This document shows, in pieces, positions 4,194 to 12,853 of a stretch of 64,000 nucleotides of DNA. Under the pieces are notes generated by a model. It had not been told where the DNA came from. It made no database searches and worked only from the letters and a program-made list of their open reading frames with translations. This stretch comes from Sneathiella sp. Its GTDB lineage: Bacteria > Pseudomonadota > Alphaproteobacteria > Sneathiellales > Sneathiellaceae. Every line of letters begins with the position of its first letter. Within the stretch, counting starts at the first letter, position 1. Made by a program: the position numbers and the translations under genes. The DNA is taken from contig JAEPMY010000001.1 of the NCBI GenBank assembly GCA_017643685.1, positions 1 through 64,000 on the forward strand, given 5' to 3'.

Positions 4194-4793
4194 TCAGTCC
4201 TCGTTTTCCTCCCGATCCAGAGGAGTGGCGGCCTCTTCGCCAAACTGATCAAACAATCCCGCTGGCTCTGTATTGAGCAAACCGCTGGCCTTCATTTCAT
4301 CAAAGCCCGGTAGGTCCCGCACATCATCAAGCCCGAAATGCAGCAGAAAATCTTCGGTCGTACCGTAGGTGACAGGCTTGCCCGGTGTGCGGCGGCGGCC
4401 TCGCGGCCGGATCCAGCCTGCCTCAAATAAAACATCCATAATCCCGCGGCTCAGCCCTACCCCGCGAATTTCCTCAATCTCTGAGCGGGTGATCGGCTGA
4501 TGATAGGCGATGATGGCGAGGGTCTCCAACGCAGCGCGGCTGAGCTTGCGGCTTGTCTCCCGCTCCTCCTGCAATAACCATGAGAGGTCGGACGCCGTCA
4601 TAAACAGCCATTTCCCCGACACCTTCACCAGATTGAAGCCCTTATGTTCATAGATCTTTTGTAGCTGCTCCAAAATATCGTAAACATCCGCCTCCTCCGG
4701 CAGGCGGGCCGCAATTGACACTTCATCCAAGGGCTCTTTAGCCGCAAATAATAAGGCTTCAGCCATGCGTAAATGATCAGGATTGATACTCAT
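4194..4793 (-). CDS. scpB: SMC-ScpB complex subunit ScpB
   Basis: AEALLFAAKEPL..., LETLAIIAYHQPITRSEIEEIRGV signature; start overlaps scpA stop. Confidence 0.93.
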   Translation of the reverse strand: MSINPDHLRMAEALLFAAKEPLDEVSIAARLPEEADVYDILEQLQKIYEHKGFNLVKVSGKWLFMTASDLSWLLQEERETSRKLSRAALETLAIIAYHQPITRSEIEEIRGVGLSRGIMDVLFEAGWIRPRGRRRTPGKPVTYGTTEDFLLHFGLDDVRDLPGFDEMKASGLLNTEPAGLFDQFGEEAATPLDREENED

Positions 4794-5602
4794 GACGGAT
4801 CCTCTCTTTTCGCGGCACGAATTTGAATAGGGCCAAAAGTCTCTGACTGGCGAACTTCCAGCTCCCCCTCTTTCACAAGCTGGAGGCTGGCAAGCAAGGT
4901 GGAGGCTTGAGCTGAGCGAATGGAGAACGGATCTTTGATATCCGTTGGCATATAATCGCGTAAATCCACCCATTCGGGCAATTTACCCAGCATTTTTTCC
5001 AGCCGCTCAAGTGCTGCCTCAACCGAATAGACAGCGGCGCGCATCAGGCGTAGCGGGTTCTGAATACCTTTTCGCTCTTCCTGCTGAACATAAGCCTGCA
5101 GCAACTCCCGCAATGTGCAGTCATATTTGGAGTGACGGATGATTTTCACACCTTCCGGCATTCCCCGACGCATGCGATCCCGTCCTGTCACCACACCGTT
5201 AATCAGCTTTTCCGCCGCGCCGCGCATCGCTTCCAACTTTCGAAGCTGAAATGCAAGGCGATCTGCCAGTTCTTGCCCTGATGGGCCTGCATCTTCCTCC
5301 TCAGGTGGCAGAAGAAGCCGCGATTTCAAAAATGCCAGCCATGCCGCCATCACCAGATAGTCAGCCGCAATTTCAAGCCGCAGCTTTCGAAGCTCCTCGA
5401 TAAAGGCGAGATACTGTTCGGCAAGTTCAAGAATGGAAATTTTGAGAAGATCAACTTTTTGATCACGGGCCAGCACCAGCAAAATATCCAGCGGGCCTTC
5501 ATACCCGTCCAGATCGACCACCAACGCATTATCAGGCGGAACAGGTTTCTCATCCGCCTGAAAATGGTCATTCTTATCAAAAAGTCCCTTATCCTTTGTC
5601 AC
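4790..5602 (-). CDS. scpA: Segregation and condensation protein ScpA
   Basis: DGYEGPLDILLVLARDQKVDLLKISILELAEQYL signature. Confidence 0.93.
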   Translation of the reverse strand: MTKDKGLFDKNDHFQADEKPVPPDNALVVDLDGYEGPLDILLVLARDQKVDLLKISILELAEQYLAFIEELRKLRLEIAADYLVMAAWLAFLKSRLLLPPEEEDAGPSGQELADRLAFQLRKLEAMRGAAEKLINGVVTGRDRMRRGMPEGVKIIRHSKYDCTLRELLQAYVQQEERKGIQNPLRLMRAAVYSVEAALERLEKMLGKLPEWVDLRDYMPTDIKDPFSIRSAQASTLLASLQLVKEGELEVRQSETFGPIQIRAAKREDPS

Positions 5603-5638: not shown

Positions 5639-6316
5639 TTAGCTTAAGCCCGCAAGTTTCGCAATGACGGAGAAAGTTGGCGTAATCAGGACATCATAAG
5701 CCCACGACATCACATTGATTTCATTACCAAGTTCTCGCGTCACCATCGGCATGATGATGATCACGCCAATCAAAATGATAAAGCCGTATTTTTCAAGCCG
5801 TGCGAGCGGTAAAGCCAGTGAATTTGGTAAAATACCAACTGCGATCCGACCGCCGTCCAACGGTGGGATCGGGATTAGATTGAATAACCCCAAAACAATA
5901 TTCAGCAGAATACCATTACCCATATTGTGGATCAGCCACATGCCAACCCCTTCCCCAAAGAGGGGCGCAATATGCAGACCAAGTGCAAATAGATACGCCA
6001 GCAGGAAATTCATTGCCGGACCGGCAAGCGCCACCCAAACCATATCCCGGCGCGGATTTCCCAACCGTCCAAAATGCACCGGAACCGGCTTCGCATAGCC
6101 AAACAGGAACGACGCCTTGAGTAACAAAAGCGCCCCCGGAATAATGATCGTACCCATAGGGTCGATATGCTTCAGCGGATTTAAGGTAACCCGCCCCTGC
6201 ATTTTTGCAGTTGGGTCCCCAAGTTTCCACGCCGCGAAGGCGTGCCCTGCCTCATGCAGCGTAATGCCCAGCAATGCAGGAATAATCCAGGTGGAAGCCG
6301 TATACAAAATATCCAT
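5639..6316 (-). CDS. Site-2 protease family (M50) membrane metalloprotease
   Basis: HEAGHA zinc motif and NLIPIPPLDGG motif. Confidence 0.9.
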   Translation of the reverse strand: MDILYTASTWIIPALLGITLHEAGHAFAAWKLGDPTAKMQGRVTLNPLKHIDPMGTIIIPGALLLLKASFLFGYAKPVPVHFGRLGNPRRDMVWVALAGPAMNFLLAYLFALGLHIAPLFGEGVGMWLIHNMGNGILLNIVLGLFNLIPIPPLDGGRIAVGILPNSLALPLARLEKYGFIILIGVIIIMPMVTRELGNEINVMSWAYDVLITPTFSVIAKLAGLS

Positions 6317-6328
6317 AGGGTAATCCGT

Positions 6329-7375
6329 TTAACTGATCAGAGAGAGAAGCTCTTCCAACTCTTGAATGGCGCTTTCGCGGTCAAATGGCGCTACAACTTC
6401 ACCTTCTGTTGGCATGACGGCACCACTTGCCATCACCCGATCTTTCACCGCTTCTGACATATGGGAAATACGCGGGGCAATGTCACACATCTCTTCCATA
6501 TGACCTGAACAATGCAACAGAATATCAATGCCTGCGGTATACGCCGCCTCTGCCCGCTCGCCCAATGTGCCTTTAAGCGCGTTCATATTCAGATCATCTG
6601 AAAGCAGCAGACCCTTAAAGCCAATATCTTCGCGGATGATGTCCTGAATAACGGTTTTGGATTGGGTGGCAGGGGCGTTGAGATCGATCTGATCAAACAC
6701 AATATGCGCCGTCATCGCCCACGGCAGTGCATTGAGCGCCTTGAACGGGGCAAAATCACTTTCTTGTAACTCTGCCCGCGTCGCGGAAACTGTTGGCAGT
6801 TCATGATGGCTATCAACGGTGCCACGTCCATGCCCCGGAAGATGTTTCATGACAGGGATGATGCCGCGTTCGATATACCGATCCGCGATCACAGCCCCTA
6901 AACGGCTCAAAATCTTGATGTCTTTATGAAGCGCCCGATCGCCAATCACATTTGATGTTTCGGGCCGCGGCAGGTCAAGGCAGGGGCTGCAATTGACGTT
7001 AAATCCAACACGGGTCAAATCATCAGAAATGATATCCGTCGCCAAAATGGCGGCCCGCTCCCCTATTTTGGGATCAATATCAAAAAGCTGCCCAAATTTC
7101 GCAAGGGCTGGTGCCTGAAACCAATGGGGCGGCCGAAGACGCTGCACGCGTCCGCCTTCCTGATCCACAAGCACAGGGGCATCCCTGCGCCCAACAGCAT
7201 GGCGAAAATCGGCAATTAGGGTTTTCAGCTGATCTGGATCACTGACATTTCGGGCAAACAGGATCAGACCAAACGGCTTTTCTGATGCGAAAAAAGCCTT
7301 CTCCTCCGCCGAAAGGGCAAGCCCCTCGACAGAGAAGATGATCGGCTTTACGCCCTCAAGATCAGTTCTTTGCAA
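6329..7375 (-). CDS. nagZ: Beta-N-acetylhexosaminidase NagZ
   Basis: VDQEGGRVQRL, KHLPGHGRGTVDSH, LLLSDDLNM motifs of GH3 NagZ. Confidence 0.93.
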   Translation of the reverse strand: MQRTDLEGVKPIIFSVEGLALSAEEKAFFASEKPFGLILFARNVSDPDQLKTLIADFRHAVGRRDAPVLVDQEGGRVQRLRPPHWFQAPALAKFGQLFDIDPKIGERAAILATDIISDDLTRVGFNVNCSPCLDLPRPETSNVIGDRALHKDIKILSRLGAVIADRYIERGIIPVMKHLPGHGRGTVDSHHELPTVSATRAELQESDFAPFKALNALPWAMTAHIVFDQIDLNAPATQSKTVIQDIIREDIGFKGLLLSDDLNMNALKGTLGERAEAAYTAGIDILLHCSGHMEEMCDIAPRISHMSEAVKDRVMASGAVMPTEGEVVAPFDRESAIQELEELLSLIS

Positions 7376-8303
7376 CGAGACAGTCCTGCTTTGCCTTTTT
7401 CAGGTCAGAACAGAGGCTATTTGCACCGTCACGGGCGGCATAAGCGCCAGCCTGAAGACGGAAGAAGGTTCCTTTACCTTTAATCTCTACAGATTGGACC
7501 TTGTGCGGCAAACCTTGCAAAAGATCATTATGTTTCTTCTGCAAGTCAGACCAGGCTTTTTCCGCTGCATCGGTGGATCGGAACGCCCCCAACTGAACGC
7601 GGTATGCAGGGCCTTTGACTTCGGCAGCTGACGGAACCGCTACTGCCACTTTCTTCGGCTCCTCTTTCGGGGCCTCGGCGACGGTTTCTTTTGGGGCCTC
7701 CGCAACTGTTTCTTTAACCGCCTCTACGGCTTTATCTGTTGTCTCTTCAACCTTTTCAGCGACCGCTTCTGCTTCTTTCTTCACGGTGTCAGCGGCCTCG
7801 GTTGCCGCCTCTTTGACGTCTTCTTTAACCTCTTCAACTTTTTCAGCAGCTTCGGCGGCAACGGTTTTTGTCTCTTCTTCGGTATCCGCCATTAGTTTTT
7901 CAGCAGTTCCTTCGGAGGTGCCCTCTGCTTCGGCTTCCTGCTCAATTTCTACCGGGGCTGGATCTTTCACCACTTCTTCCGGTGCTTCCATCAGTTTTTC
8001 AACTTTCTCTTCCTCTTTGTCACCGCTGAGGACGTTGAAAACTTTTTTATCCTGATGAGGGATTTCCATTCCGCCGGGGTCTTCCGGTTTTTCTTTAACC
8101 GGATTGTTATCCGCTTTGATAATTGGTGGGGCTAGCTGCACCCCTTTTTTGACGCCCTGATCATAGGCGTACCAAATGCCGATACCGAAACCGACCACGA
8201 TAACAACAGCAAGACCAGCGCCTAGCAATTTCCAGCGGTTAAAGGTGGGGACGTAGTCGTCTTCGAAAAAGTCACCATCATCAAATTCGTTTTTATCGCT
8301 CAC
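7362..8303 (-). CDS. SPOR domain-containing membrane protein
   Basis: N-terminal TM, Ala/Glu/Val/Lys-rich linker, C-terminal YRVQLGAFRSTDAAEKAWSDL SPOR domain. Confidence 0.85.
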   Translation of the reverse strand: MSDKNEFDDGDFFEDDYVPTFNRWKLLGAGLAVVIVVGFGIGIWYAYDQGVKKGVQLAPPIIKADNNPVKEKPEDPGGMEIPHQDKKVFNVLSGDKEEEKVEKLMEAPEEVVKDPAPVEIEQEAEAEGTSEGTAEKLMADTEEETKTVAAEAAEKVEEVKEDVKEAATEAADTVKKEAEAVAEKVEETTDKAVEAVKETVAEAPKETVAEAPKEEPKKVAVAVPSAAEVKGPAYRVQLGAFRSTDAAEKAWSDLQKKHNDLLQGLPHKVQSVEIKGKGTFFRLQAGAYAARDGANSLCSDLKKAKQDCLVAKN

Positions 8304-9319
8304 TAAATGAACTCCTTAACCCTGTCATGCCCCAGCGCCTCAAGTGCATCCTCCAAGAGATGCGCCAGCGCGTTCAATAATTCCCGCCTGAGCGGTGCGC
8401 ATTCGCCTGCTGTCAAATAATCAGACGATTGCAACCGTTGCGTCTTGTATAATTCAAAAAATAACAGGGATGCCCCTGTCAGAAAACCCGTCAAATTAAC
8501 CAAACTCTGTTCTGACAGGGATTTGTGCAAAATTTGAGGCCATCCTATCAGATGACGAACGAGTGCCATCTCTTCTTCCCCCGAAAATCCAACCTCGTCA
8601 GAGATTAAAGCGACATCCTCACCCGCTGCTGCGTTTTGATCCAGAAGACGATGGATCGTCGCATAAGTGTAGGGAAGCAAAAAGGCAGGCGCGTCATAGG
8701 ATCGATCCAGCGCCTTCGCCGGACTGAAATGAATGGCAAAGTCATCATCATGGGTGAGAATGGCAAGCCGTAAAGTCTGCTCTCCGCATTTTGCGAGGGC
8801 AGCAGAGGCATTAAATCCGCTGCGTTCCATTTCCTCTGTCTCTAAGATTTGCGCAGAACCACCCAACATCTTGGCAAATTTGGATAAGGCCTCCGCTGTC
8901 CAGCGCCTTTTCAACGCCATTAGATCGGCATCCCCCGCCGGAACAGAGATATTGAGACTAGGCTCATATCCCCCTGCCCCGTATCTGACACCCATTTCAG
9001 ACAGCATGATAATTTCTTCTGTCCAGTAAGACGGATCAAAGAAGATATTCAAATCCCGCCCAGAGGAGATTTTGACGGACGCAACAGCCGATATATTCTC
9101 CAGTGCCGGAATAATCTTGTCCTCCGGTGACGGGTCCCCATTTGTAAGTTGCAGGATATTACTGGACAGGTCCCCCCATTTAGGGTCTCTTGGCGGGCGA
9201 AGCTTCAAGGAGCTATGATCCTGCCCCTTATCCGCTAGATAGTCTTGTAGAATAGACAGGATTTGGTCGTAGAGTGTCGCAGTCATCTTTTCTGTATTGA
9301 TACCCATGGCAATTGACAA
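8303..9319 (-). CDS. ArgRS-like protein without catalytic core: ArgRS N-terminal-like domain plus DALR-type anticodon-binding C-terminus
   Basis: LKLRPPRDPKWGDLSSNI resembles the ArgRS N-domain; LRLAILTHDDDFAIHFSPAKALDRSYDAPAFLLPYTYATIHRLL resembles the start of the ArgRS C-terminal region; HIGH and KMSKS absent; conserved neighbourhood (SPOR/nagZ/scpAB on one side, erpA/xthA on the other). Confidence 0.75.
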   Translation of the reverse strand: MSIAMGINTEKMTATLYDQILSILQDYLADKGQDHSSLKLRPPRDPKWGDLSSNILQLTNGDPSPEDKIIPALENISAVASVKISSGRDLNIFFDPSYWTEEIIMLSEMGVRYGAGGYEPSLNISVPAGDADLMALKRRWTAEALSKFAKMLGGSAQILETEEMERSGFNASAALAKCGEQTLRLAILTHDDDFAIHFSPAKALDRSYDAPAFLLPYTYATIHRLLDQNAAAGEDVALISDEVGFSGEEEMALVRHLIGWPQILHKSLSEQSLVNLTGFLTGASLLFFELYKTQRLQSSDYLTAGECAPLRRELLNALAHLLEDALEALGHDRVKEFI

Positions 9320-9394
9320 AAGGCCCGGTGATTAATACATCAATACAACATATGGTGATTGGAAACAGTTTTATTTTGATGGGTGGAATTGCAG

Positions 9395-9745
9395 ATGGCA
9401 TCCCCGATGATTGACGAACCTCCTGTAAAATTGACGGATGCGGCGGCTAAGCAGATTAACGCCATCATCCAGCAAACCAACAGTGAGAAGAAAATGCTGC
9501 GTGTTGCGGTAAACGGTGGCGGTTGCTCCGGTTTCCAATACAGCTTCGATCTGGATGATACGCAAAACCCGGATGATCTGGTCGTGGAAAATGGCGGTGC
9601 TACCCTCCTGGTGGATAACATCTCTTTAATGTATCTGGCTGGCGCTGAGGTGGACTTTGTCAGCGACCTGATCGGCAGTGCTTTTCAGATTAAAAACCCA
9701 AACGCAACAGCGTCATGTTCTTGCGGATCATCCTTCTCTATCTAA
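9395..9745 (+). CDS. erpA: Iron-sulfur cluster insertion protein ErpA
   Basis: A-type carrier: VNGGGCSGFQYSF and C-terminal CSCGSSF cysteines. Confidence 0.9.
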   Translation: MASPMIDEPPVKLTDAAAKQINAIIQQTNSEKKMLRVAVNGGGCSGFQYSFDLDDTQNPDDLVVENGGATLLVDNISLMYLAGAEVDFVSDLIGSAFQIKNPNATASCSCGSSFSI

Positions 9746-9760
9746 ATCACCGGTATATTC

Positions 9761-10531
9761 ATGAAAATCGCTAGCTGGAACGTTAATTCCGTCAAGGCAC
9801 GCCTGCCTATTCTCCTAAACTATCTGGAGAAAACGAAAATTGACGTTCTCTGCCTGCAGGAACTGAAATGTATCGACGAGAACTTCCCCCGCGAGGAGGT
9901 TGAAGCTCTCGGCTATCATGTGGAGACACATGGGCAGAAAACTTATAATGGCGTTGCGATCCTGTCCCGGCATGAGATGACGGATGTCATGCGCCGCCTT
10001 CCCGGTGATGACGCCGATGAGCAGGCCCGCTATATAGAGGCGACAATCAAAGGTGTGCGGATCGCGTCTATCTATCTTCCAAACGGCAATCCGGTGGGCA
10101 CAGAGAAGTTCCCGTACAAACTTGGATGGATGGAACGGCTATACAACCGCTCGCAAGAGCTTCTGGAAAGCGAAATGCCGGTTGTCCTTGCCGGCGACTA
10201 TAATATTATCCCTCAGGATGAAGACTGCTACGACCCCAGAGCATGGGAAGGTGATGCCCTAACCCAGCCAGAGAGCCGGGCCGCTTTTCGCAAAATCCTG
10301 AACGACGGTTATGCGGACGCTTACCGGACATTTACACCTGATGTGAATTATACCTATTGGGATTACCAACGCGGTGCCTGGCAAAAAGATAACGGCATCC
10401 GTATTGATCACCTGCTCCTCTCTCCTCAGGCAATGGATCAGTTGATCGACGTTGGGATTGATAAAGAACCGCGCGGTATGGAAAAACCATCCGACCACAC
10501 ACCTATTTGGGTAAAATTCCCCTCTAAATGA
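9761..10531 (+). CDS. xthA: Exodeoxyribonuclease III
   Basis: MKIASWNVNSVKARLP, LCLQELKC, AGDYNI, RIDHLLLSP, SDHTPIW motifs. Confidence 0.95.
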   Translation: MKIASWNVNSVKARLPILLNYLEKTKIDVLCLQELKCIDENFPREEVEALGYHVETHGQKTYNGVAILSRHEMTDVMRRLPGDDADEQARYIEATIKGVRIASIYLPNGNPVGTEKFPYKLGWMERLYNRSQELLESEMPVVLAGDYNIIPQDEDCYDPRAWEGDALTQPESRAAFRKILNDGYADAYRTFTPDVNYTYWDYQRGAWQKDNGIRIDHLLLSPQAMDQLIDVGIDKEPRGMEKPSDHTPIWVKFPSK

Positions 10532-10581: not shown

Positions 10582-12282
10582 ATGAGCGGGCCACGCTTAT
10601 TTGTTAGTATTTCCAAAATGGATGGGGGGGAAGTGCTTAAAGAAGTCATAGACCATACGAAGCTGCCGGCAAACTGCTTCGATTACCTGGATCAGGGGAT
10701 CAGCATCATGGATGCGGACCTGACATTGGTATTCTGCAATGATAAATTTGCCGAGCTATTGGAGCTGCCCAGAGACTTGATGGTTTTTCAGAAAACTACA
10801 CTGGAGGACATCTTCCGGTATAACGCAGCGCGTGGTGAATATGGCGAAGGGGATCAAGAAGAGCAAATTCAGGAGCGAATGGAACTCGCCCAGCAAGGCG
10901 TCCCTCATTCTTTTGAACGGATCCGCCCGGACGGGCGTGTACTGAATGTTTGTGGCAATCCTCTGCCCGATGGCGGCTTTGTAACCACCTATACAGATAT
11001 CACTGATCATTATAAGGATCGTCACGCGCTTGAAATCGCAAATCGTCTTTTGGATGATCGGGTTCAACAGCGTACAGCTGAGCTAAATACCAATCGCCAA
11101 GAACTTGCAGAAAAAGCGAAAACCCTCGAAACCATCATGGACAAGGTCACATCTGGCCTTGCCCTCTTTGATGGCGGATTGAAGTTATCTATCTGGAATG
11201 ACATCTTTTTTGAGATTGCAGGTTATCCAGACTACTTGCGGATTGTCGGCACACCACTGATCGAGTTTATTCGGTACGACATTGACCAAAAAGAATATGG
11301 GGAAAATCCAGAGCCGGGCCTCGCAGATGTGCTGCTTGAAAAAATGATGGAAGATGGTCATCCGCCTTTCGTTTCAAAAAGAAAAAATGGTCGGATCATC
11401 TCTCTTGAACATCGCTCCACGTCTGTTGGGATCTTATGTACCCTAACAGATATTACGGATCAGAAAAAAGCAGAAGATTTCCTAAGACGCAATAACGAGA
11501 TACTTGAAGAGCATGTGCAGGAGCGTACTGCGGCATTAAGGCAAGCGAAAGAGACAGCAGAGACGGCCAGTGCCTCCAAGTCCGCGTTTCTCGCCAATAT
11601 GAGCCATGAGCTCAGAACACCGCTCAACGCAATTATCGGGTTTTCTGAACTGTTGATGATGCCGGACTACAACCTGATCGATCAGGAAAAACGGGGGGAG
11701 TATGCAGAGGGTATCAATTCTGCGGGTATACACCTGCTACAGGTGATCAACGATATTCTGGACGTCGCCAAGATTGAAGCGAACCAGATCAACTTGACCA
11801 CCGAACGCATTGAGATGAACAACCTCATTTCTGCAAGTCAACAGCTCGTACATGTGGAGGCGAATAAGAAACATATTGCGCTGACCGCCTCCGTGGATGA
11901 TAACGCGGCGATCATTCTTGGCGATCCGACACGTATGAAGCAGATATTGGTGAACTTGCTGTCAAATGCTGTGAAATTCACTGAACCAGACGGATCTATT
12001 CATGTGGAAGTTTGCCGTACAAATGAAGGCGGCGTCCGCTTGAGTGTGATTGATACCGGTATCGGAATTGCCAATGACGATATCGATCATGTGCTCTCGC
12101 AGTTTGGACAAATTGAATCTGCCTATAATCGGGATCATCAGGGGACAGGCCTTGGCCTTAGCCTTGTCCGATTACTGACACACGCACATGATGGCAGTTT
12201 CCAACTAGAAAGCGAACTGGATGTTGGAACGAAAGCCCATGTATATCTCCCGGCCTCTCGACTATGCCAAATGGGTACTTGA
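10582..12282 (+). CDS. PAS-domain sensor histidine kinase (two PAS regions, HisKA, HATPase)
   Basis: FLANMSHELRTPLNAIIGFSELL H-box; NLLSNAVKFT, DTGIGI, GTGLGLSL boxes. Start may be ATG 10618. Confidence 0.9.
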   Translation: MSGPRLFVSISKMDGGEVLKEVIDHTKLPANCFDYLDQGISIMDADLTLVFCNDKFAELLELPRDLMVFQKTTLEDIFRYNAARGEYGEGDQEEQIQERMELAQQGVPHSFERIRPDGRVLNVCGNPLPDGGFVTTYTDITDHYKDRHALEIANRLLDDRVQQRTAELNTNRQELAEKAKTLETIMDKVTSGLALFDGGLKLSIWNDIFFEIAGYPDYLRIVGTPLIEFIRYDIDQKEYGENPEPGLADVLLEKMMEDGHPPFVSKRKNGRIISLEHRSTSVGILCTLTDITDQKKAEDFLRRNNEILEEHVQERTAALRQAKETAETASASKSAFLANMSHELRTPLNAIIGFSELLMMPDYNLIDQEKRGEYAEGINSAGIHLLQVINDILDVAKIEANQINLTTERIEMNNLISASQQLVHVEANKKHIALTASVDDNAAIILGDPTRMKQILVNLLSNAVKFTEPDGSIHVEVCRTNEGGVRLSVIDTGIGIANDDIDHVLSQFGQIESAYNRDHQGTGLGLSLVRLLTHAHDGSFQLESELDVGTKAHVYLPASRLCQMGT

Positions 12283-12325
12283 ACAAGACATTTGATTAAA
12301 ATTATTCTAGTAGCTTAAGCAAAGT

Positions 12326-12853
12326 ATGAGATTAGTACAGATGTTACATTTTAAGGGTATCGAAAATTCATCCTCGCTTGTCCAGAAGGGGTTCGCCTAC
12401 TGGCAGTCCAAATGCACGGACGGGGAAATTCCTCGGTGGTCTGAAATTAACCCAATGGAAATCAAATCTCTGCTACCCAACCTCGTCGCCCTCCACGTTC
12501 ACTACGATCCGCTTGATTTTGTTGAAAGAATTACAGGCGATGCCATTCTCTCGCGAAGTCATGCCAATAGCATGGGGCAGAATTGGCGCGATTATGAAGG
12601 TCGCGGCCCGGGGAGTGCCATCTGGAATGTAATGGAAGAGGTCGTCACGCACAAACAACCCAGTTTTCACAGCATTCCCTATGTTGGCCCTCATCAAGAG
12701 TTTATGAAAGTTGACACTGTTGCCTGCCCTCTTCTCAATGAAGACGGGAAAATAACACGTATTTTAACATTCGTGGATTATCTACCGACTGACGAATCAG
12801 ATAGCATTGATCATTTGATTACAAACGATACCTCACGACGTTTTGTGCTCTGA
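12326..12853 (+). CDS. PAS_5-like domain protein
   Basis: PRWSEINPMEIKSLLPNLVALHV...DFVERITGDAI pattern of small alphaproteobacterial PAS proteins. Confidence 0.7.
   Translation: MRLVQMLHFKGIENSSSLVQKGFAYWQSKCTDGEIPRWSEINPMEIKSLLPNLVALHVHYDPLDFVERITGDAILSRSHANSMGQNWRDYEGRGPGSAIWNVMEEVVTHKQPSFHSIPYVGPHQEFMKVDTVACPLLNEDGKITRILTFVDYLPTDESDSIDHLITNDTSRRFVL

Follow-up and report, generated by a model that had tools for sequence, protein, structure and literature searches.

The slot held by argS in the dgt-argS-SPOR-nagZ operon of alphaproteobacteria is filled in Sneathiella by a protein that derives from the native alphaproteobacterial arginyl-tRNA synthetase (ArgRS) of this operon and lacks its catalytic core, and a full ArgRS of another subtype, encoded elsewhere in the genome, carries out the charging. 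The evolutionary pattern of the gene indicates a changed function and not decay, and we give about an even chance to the reading that its product is a non-catalytic tRNA-Arg-binding adaptor or regulator, cut down from the native enzyme after replacement. The gene lies in the window, the whole 64,000-nucleotide stretch of DNA that was analysed, which comes from a MAG belonging to Sneathiella. The gene and its neighbours are:

8303..9286, minus strand: core-less ArgRS-derived protein of 327 aa, ATG start (the ORF runs on to a TTG at 9319); intact orthologues occupy this locus in other Sneathiella genomes and in a sister genus
7362..8303, minus strand: SPOR-domain gene, overlapping the core-less ArgRS gene by 1 nt (TAGTG)
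8312-8317: likely SPOR Shine-Dalgarno sequence (AAGGAG), inside the last codons of the core-less ArgRS gene
6329..7375, minus strand: nagZ-like glycoside hydrolase family 3 gene, same operon
5639..6316, minus strand: M50-like membrane protease gene, same operon, assigned by eye and synteny
4790..5602, minus strand: scpA, same operon, assigned by eye and synteny
9383..9745, plus strand: erpA, divergent neighbour marking the locus
9761..10531, plus strand: xthA, divergent neighbour marking the locus

The original prediction described an open reading frame at complement(8303..9319) encoding a 338-aa product with an ArgRS-like N-domain and a C-terminal anticodon-binding region. The frame is present and open in the sequence, but the start at 9319 did not hold, as the alignment of orthologues begins at the ATG at 9286 (MTATLYDQ) and not at the TTG. 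Both domains were recovered by Pfam, with DALR_1 found in 22/22 orthologues and Arg_tRNA_synt_N in 17/22. For the protein of the window itself, DALR_1 was over the gathering score (E 7.9e-6) and Arg_tRNA_synt_N, searched with this protein alone, was below threshold (E 0.22). The protein keeps the ArgRS domain order, with the N-domain followed by a short middle part and then DALR, and matched the NCBIfam argS equivalog with an E of 2e-10 and 39.7 bits, against a cutoff of 261.65. Its parts are:

8972..9286, minus strand: residues 1-105, ArgRS N-terminal (Add1 / D-loop-binding) domain, supported by Arg_tRNA_synt_N in the orthologues and by a profile match to PDB ArgRS N-domains
9047..9049, minus strand: invariant Asn80, the equivalent of the tRNA-Arg A20 reader E. 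coli N84 / T. thermophilus N79 (20/20 orthologues; PMC8975779)
8837..8971, minus strand: residues 106-150, first beta-alpha unit of the class I Rossmann domain, without HIGH (the HVGH region reads D-L-x-S in the family)
8687..8824, minus strand: residues 155-200, post-KMSKS segment of native ArgRS, with KMSKS absent and a family-specific invariant Cys167
8324..8671, minus strand: DALR anticodon-binding domain (Pfam DALR_1)

Missing from the protein are about 240-280 core residues, the HIGH and KMSKS elements and the insertion domain that native ArgRS possesses. Alignment with native alphaproteobacterial ArgRS revealed that 82 conserved native columns, lying between native residues 121 and 409 and including the KMSKS region, are absent, and that the HIGH position reads D-L-x-S or similar across the family, native H138 being replaced by D and H141 mostly by S. 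The predicted loss of both motifs was thus confirmed, with the KMSKS region falling within the deletion. The accompanying claim that the Rossmann domain is largely lost is correct, except that its first beta-alpha unit, at residues about 110-150, is retained in a form lacking HIGH. A profile search of the genome gave no tRNA-synt_1d match at the erpA-SPOR locus. Modelling by AlphaFold2 with 22 orthologues gave a mean pLDDT of 90.7 and a pTM of 0.87, and a compact ArgRS-like fold is confidently predicted. The best 20 matches in a PDB fold search were all ArgRS (TMq up to 0.73), most of these alignments spanning roughly 550-620 columns, a length that points to an extensive gap where the core would lie; the only confident matches in a viral fold library were viral ArgRS. 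A complete class I fold, which the original prediction had named as contrary evidence, was not found. Judged from its sequence, the core-less protein cannot act as an aminoacyl-tRNA synthetase.

In other alphaproteobacteria the same slot is filled by full-length native ArgRS, in line with the proposal that a remnant has replaced argS in a dgt-argS-SPOR-nagZ locus. Divergent erpA and xthA accompany argS-SPOR-nagZ(-scpA) with full native ArgRS at L096, L097, L098, L100 and L103, and L099 and L104 carry argS-SPOR-nagZ without erpA/xthA in the stretch. The core-less proteins scored 67-117 bits with an HMM of native ArgRS and -3 to 28 bits with an HMM of the replacement subtype. In the tree, the core-less proteins grouped with native ArgRS, and replacement-type ArgRS formed a separate branch (100%). 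Plain duplication of the genome's own argS was ruled out by the HMM scores and the tree.

The suggestion that a true argS lies elsewhere was also correct, and the absence of any other argS, which would have counted against the original prediction, was not observed: the one tRNA-synt_1d match in the genome is a complete ArgRS of 589 aa on contig C34. Every other checked Sneathiella genome with the core-less protein encodes one full ArgRS, except G002 (91% complete, 220 contigs), where none was found, and G010, where it is split by a frameshift. An N-domain and a DALR domain are both present in the replacement ArgRS, which in most comparisons is 22-27% identical to native alphaproteobacterial ArgRS, compared with 45-85% for the same subtype elsewhere.

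The core-less gene was found at the same locus in 22/25 Sneathiella genomes, including that of the window, and in the sister genus (G025); the three Sneathiella genomes without a match are 56-66% complete. Named carriers include S. chinensis, S. litorea, S. chungangensis, S. sedimenti and S. glossodoripedis. An assembly artefact of the MAG was ruled out because numerous isolates and MAGs show the same architecture. Across a very long tree, all genomes but one (G010) have intact reading frames. The assembly of Sneathiella glossodoripedis JCM 23214 contains frameshifts in both the core-less gene and full argS (L068 around 7030; L198/L199), and since the essential full argS is frameshifted in the same assembly, the break in the core-less gene is likely a sequencing error.

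With respect to tRNA-Arg recognition, E. coli N84 and T. thermophilus N79 recognise A20 of tRNA-Arg (PMC8975779), and alignment places Asn80 of the core-less protein at the equivalent position, the residue roles being those of that study. Asn80 is invariant in 20/20 orthologues and the adjacent aromatic residue is kept in 17/20, the motif G-[FY]-[ILV]-N is conserved in most core-less members and in another lineage (G046/G168), and A20 is present in all four tRNA-Arg genes found in the genome (UCU, CCG, CCU, ACG). Set against this, the window's own clade (G000, G016, G006) has Asp at the position that stacks on A20, the protein of the window is acidic (pI 4.8, net -19), and substitutions have altered the block that native ArgRS conserves most strongly in its DALR domain (FHALWNKGK...RF), with H changed to F, W to V/Y/N/F and R to Y. 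Weighing the A20-reading Asn and the A20 of the tRNAs against the DALR changes, the Asp and the acidity, we consider binding of tRNA-Arg somewhat more probable than its absence, and the 'tRNA-binding or regulatory' role named at the outset is plausible.

We propose that the lineage became dependent on a second ArgRS of the E. coli subtype, which would have made the native alphaproteobacterial argS redundant. The native gene would have lost its catalytic core by internal deletion and stayed in place, leaving a folded, selected protein made of tRNA-recognising modules, the N-domain for D-loop base A20 and the DALR domain for the anticodon arm. Such a protein would bind tRNA-Arg in its charged or uncharged form but would not aminoacylate it, and its re-tooled surface could recruit a partner, for example a tRNA-modifying enzyme, or could tune expression of the coupled SPOR-nagZ operon. 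The binding of tRNA-Arg, the partner and the downstream effect are the parts of this reading that we infer; no tRNA methyltransferase, a candidate partner, was seen in the operon. If the native ArgRS fold was instead exapted as a protein-binding or structural scaffold without tRNA binding, it may act with the co-transcribed SPOR and NagZ cell-envelope proteins. The replacement of native-conserved residues by Cys167, Ser188, Tyr197, Phe277 and Tyr290, the acidity of the protein and its strict linkage to SPOR-nagZ-M50-scpA across the Sneathiella loci compared are all consistent with a scaffold. We nevertheless regard it as unlikely, because the A20-reading Asn is invariant and G-[FY]-[ILV]-N recurs in a separate lineage, and because the linkage to SPOR-nagZ was inherited from native argS and so is not evidence for a new functional tie.

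Selection on the gene was assessed in relatives, as had been suggested, by applying NG86 to pairs from five close species. This analysis revealed purifying selection, with a dN/dS of 0.21-0.36 at unsaturated dS (0.45-1.24), well below 1 and above the values of about 0.03-0.14 obtained for SPOR, nagZ, M50 and xthA in the same comparison. The three segments of the gene gave dN/dS values of 0.28, 0.21 and 0.27. Protein tree length was 13.4 for the core-less protein, compared with 6.5 for SPOR and NagZ; ErpA and XthA gave 1.7-1.9. Residues Cys167, Ser188, Tyr197, Phe277 and Tyr290 are invariant in the family and stand in place of conserved native ArgRS residues. Taken together, the dN/dS values, the fast change, the new invariants and the fact that the sole broken frame is likely an error indicate a changed function and not decay; a decaying pseudogene was ruled out by the dN/dS values, the intact frames and the confident fold.

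The original prediction also held that the open frame is coupled to the SPOR gene. The TAGTG overlap, together with the likely Shine-Dalgarno sequence in the last codons, makes translational coupling plausible, although SPOR-nagZ persists in families without the gene, so coupling alone does not account for its retention. The same features bear on the idea of a slowly decaying relic whose frame is kept for translational coupling to, or as a promoter of, the downstream SPOR-nagZ-scpA genes. Such a relic would fit a rate of change twice that of SPOR and nagZ and several times that of erpA and xthA, a dN/dS above that of the neighbours and a lower dS in the 3' half. It is nonetheless improbable given a dN/dS well below 1 throughout the gene (0.21-0.28 in each of the segments), the new invariant residues, the pLDDT 90.7 fold, frames that are intact but for the one assembly that also frameshifts essential argS, and eleven families that lack the gene and still keep SPOR-nagZ. 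Across 8303-8800 of the window, dS among the five close species over the final 160 codons of this gene was about half that over the first 160, perhaps reflecting a promoter or RNA element for SPOR.

To place these observations in a wider context, the profile was matched in 264/289 alphaproteobacterial genomes, almost always by a full-length native ArgRS. In lineages with a replacement ArgRS, clean loss of argS was observed in 11 families in total, with dgt adjoining SPOR in 15 genomes and erpA adjoining SPOR in one; SPOR-nagZ was kept in these families and no substitute for argS was visible at the locus. The adaptor or regulator role is therefore not universal. These losses also make it very unlikely that the core-less protein is a trans-acting subunit or chaperone that presents tRNA-Arg to the replacement ArgRS or regulates it: a replacement-type ArgRS does occur in the lineages with a core-less protein, but many lineages with that enzyme have no core-less partner, and it already contains both an N-domain and a DALR domain.

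Core-less proteins also occupy the slot outside Sneathiella. G191 carries dgt, a 322-aa DALR_1 protein (L167:4726-5694, plus strand), SPOR and nagZ in this order, and also encodes a full replacement-type ArgRS. The 322-aa protein has no recognisable A20 motif and scored 14.7 and 14.5 bits with the native and replacement HMMs, respectively; it is by its position that an origin from native argS is suggested. Its AlphaFold model, built from a single sequence, had a pLDDT of 37 and is meaningless. In two species of one family (G046 and G168), a 220-aa protein lies between dgt and SPOR (L230:2739-3401 and L231:568-1230, both minus strand). This form, whose N-domain contains G-F-[IV]-N and runs almost directly into the DALR domain with nearly no core between them, is a minimal parallel case. 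The two proteins are 51% identical, with a dN/dS of about 0.29 at a dS near saturation, and scored 74 and 56 bits with the native HMM versus 14 and 12 bits with the replacement HMM. The three core-less lineages are probably independent events, as they belong to different families and differ in the ends of the deletion. A broader reading, which we hold tentatively and on balance doubt, is that in at least three lineages a displaced native ArgRS gene independently became a core-less tRNA-Arg-recognition protein in its ancestral operon, exposing a second, non-catalytic ArgRS function. If this is true, native ArgRS already had a task beyond the reach of the replacement ArgRS; it may, for instance, have controlled the dgt-SPOR-nagZ operon in response to tRNA-Arg or recruited an enzyme that modifies tRNA-Arg.

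Compared with native ArgRS, a class Ia enzyme encoded in dgt-argS-SPOR-nagZ, the Sneathiella protein shares the N-domain, the first Rossmann beta-alpha unit, the post-KMSKS segment, the DALR domain and the genome position, but lacks HIGH, KMSKS, the insertion domain and the rest of the core. Synthetase-derived proteins usually retain the catalytic domain or come from duplication. HisZ, PoxA/GenX and YadB are synthetase-derived proteins in which the aminoacylation role is altered or lost; they keep a catalytic-type domain, with the anticodon domain reduced or lost. The Sneathiella protein is the opposite, having lost the catalytic domain and kept the tRNA-recognition domains. In vertebrates, DALRD3 binds tRNA-Arg and recruits METTL2 (PMC7237682), and like the Sneathiella protein it has a DALR domain and no synthetase catalytic core. 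DALRD3 is vertebrate-specific, has an N-terminal part without a recognisable domain and works with METTL2 (PMC7237682), whereas an ArgRS N-domain can be recognised in the Sneathiella protein, which was formed in place from native argS. DALRD3 is the closest working counterpart and offers a precedent for tRNA-Arg binding without charging.

In the literature searched, which comprised papers available without subscription, we found nothing relevant on bacterial core-less ArgRS, on Sneathiella argS or on actinobacterial NrtL, the ArgS-related protein named in the original prediction. Synthetase-derived proteins as such are known; what we did not find there is a core-deleted ArgRS made in place after enzyme replacement and recurring in one operon slot. 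The case is one in which an enzyme was replaced and the original gene trimmed in place to its RNA-recognition modules, selected across a genus and paralleled elsewhere. Any non-charging function of ArgRS would be separated from charging in these bacteria, making a moonlighting role directly testable, and cultured Sneathiella species carry the core-less gene. Annotators should label such genes neither 'arginine--tRNA ligase' nor a discardable pseudogene.

Two further observations concern the surroundings of the locus. The original prediction noted that dgt is missing here; the operon copy is gone from the Sneathiella locus, and the genome search placed dgt on contig C56 (G000:C56 = L089:7228-8562, minus strand), away from the erpA/SPOR locus. 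Its identity to the operon copies of other alphaproteobacteria is only about 24-36%, and by its sequence it may likewise be a replacement. Beside xthA, positions 10582-12853 of the window encode a PAS-type histidine kinase and a small PAS protein, which are kept in part of the genus and absent at this spot in others.
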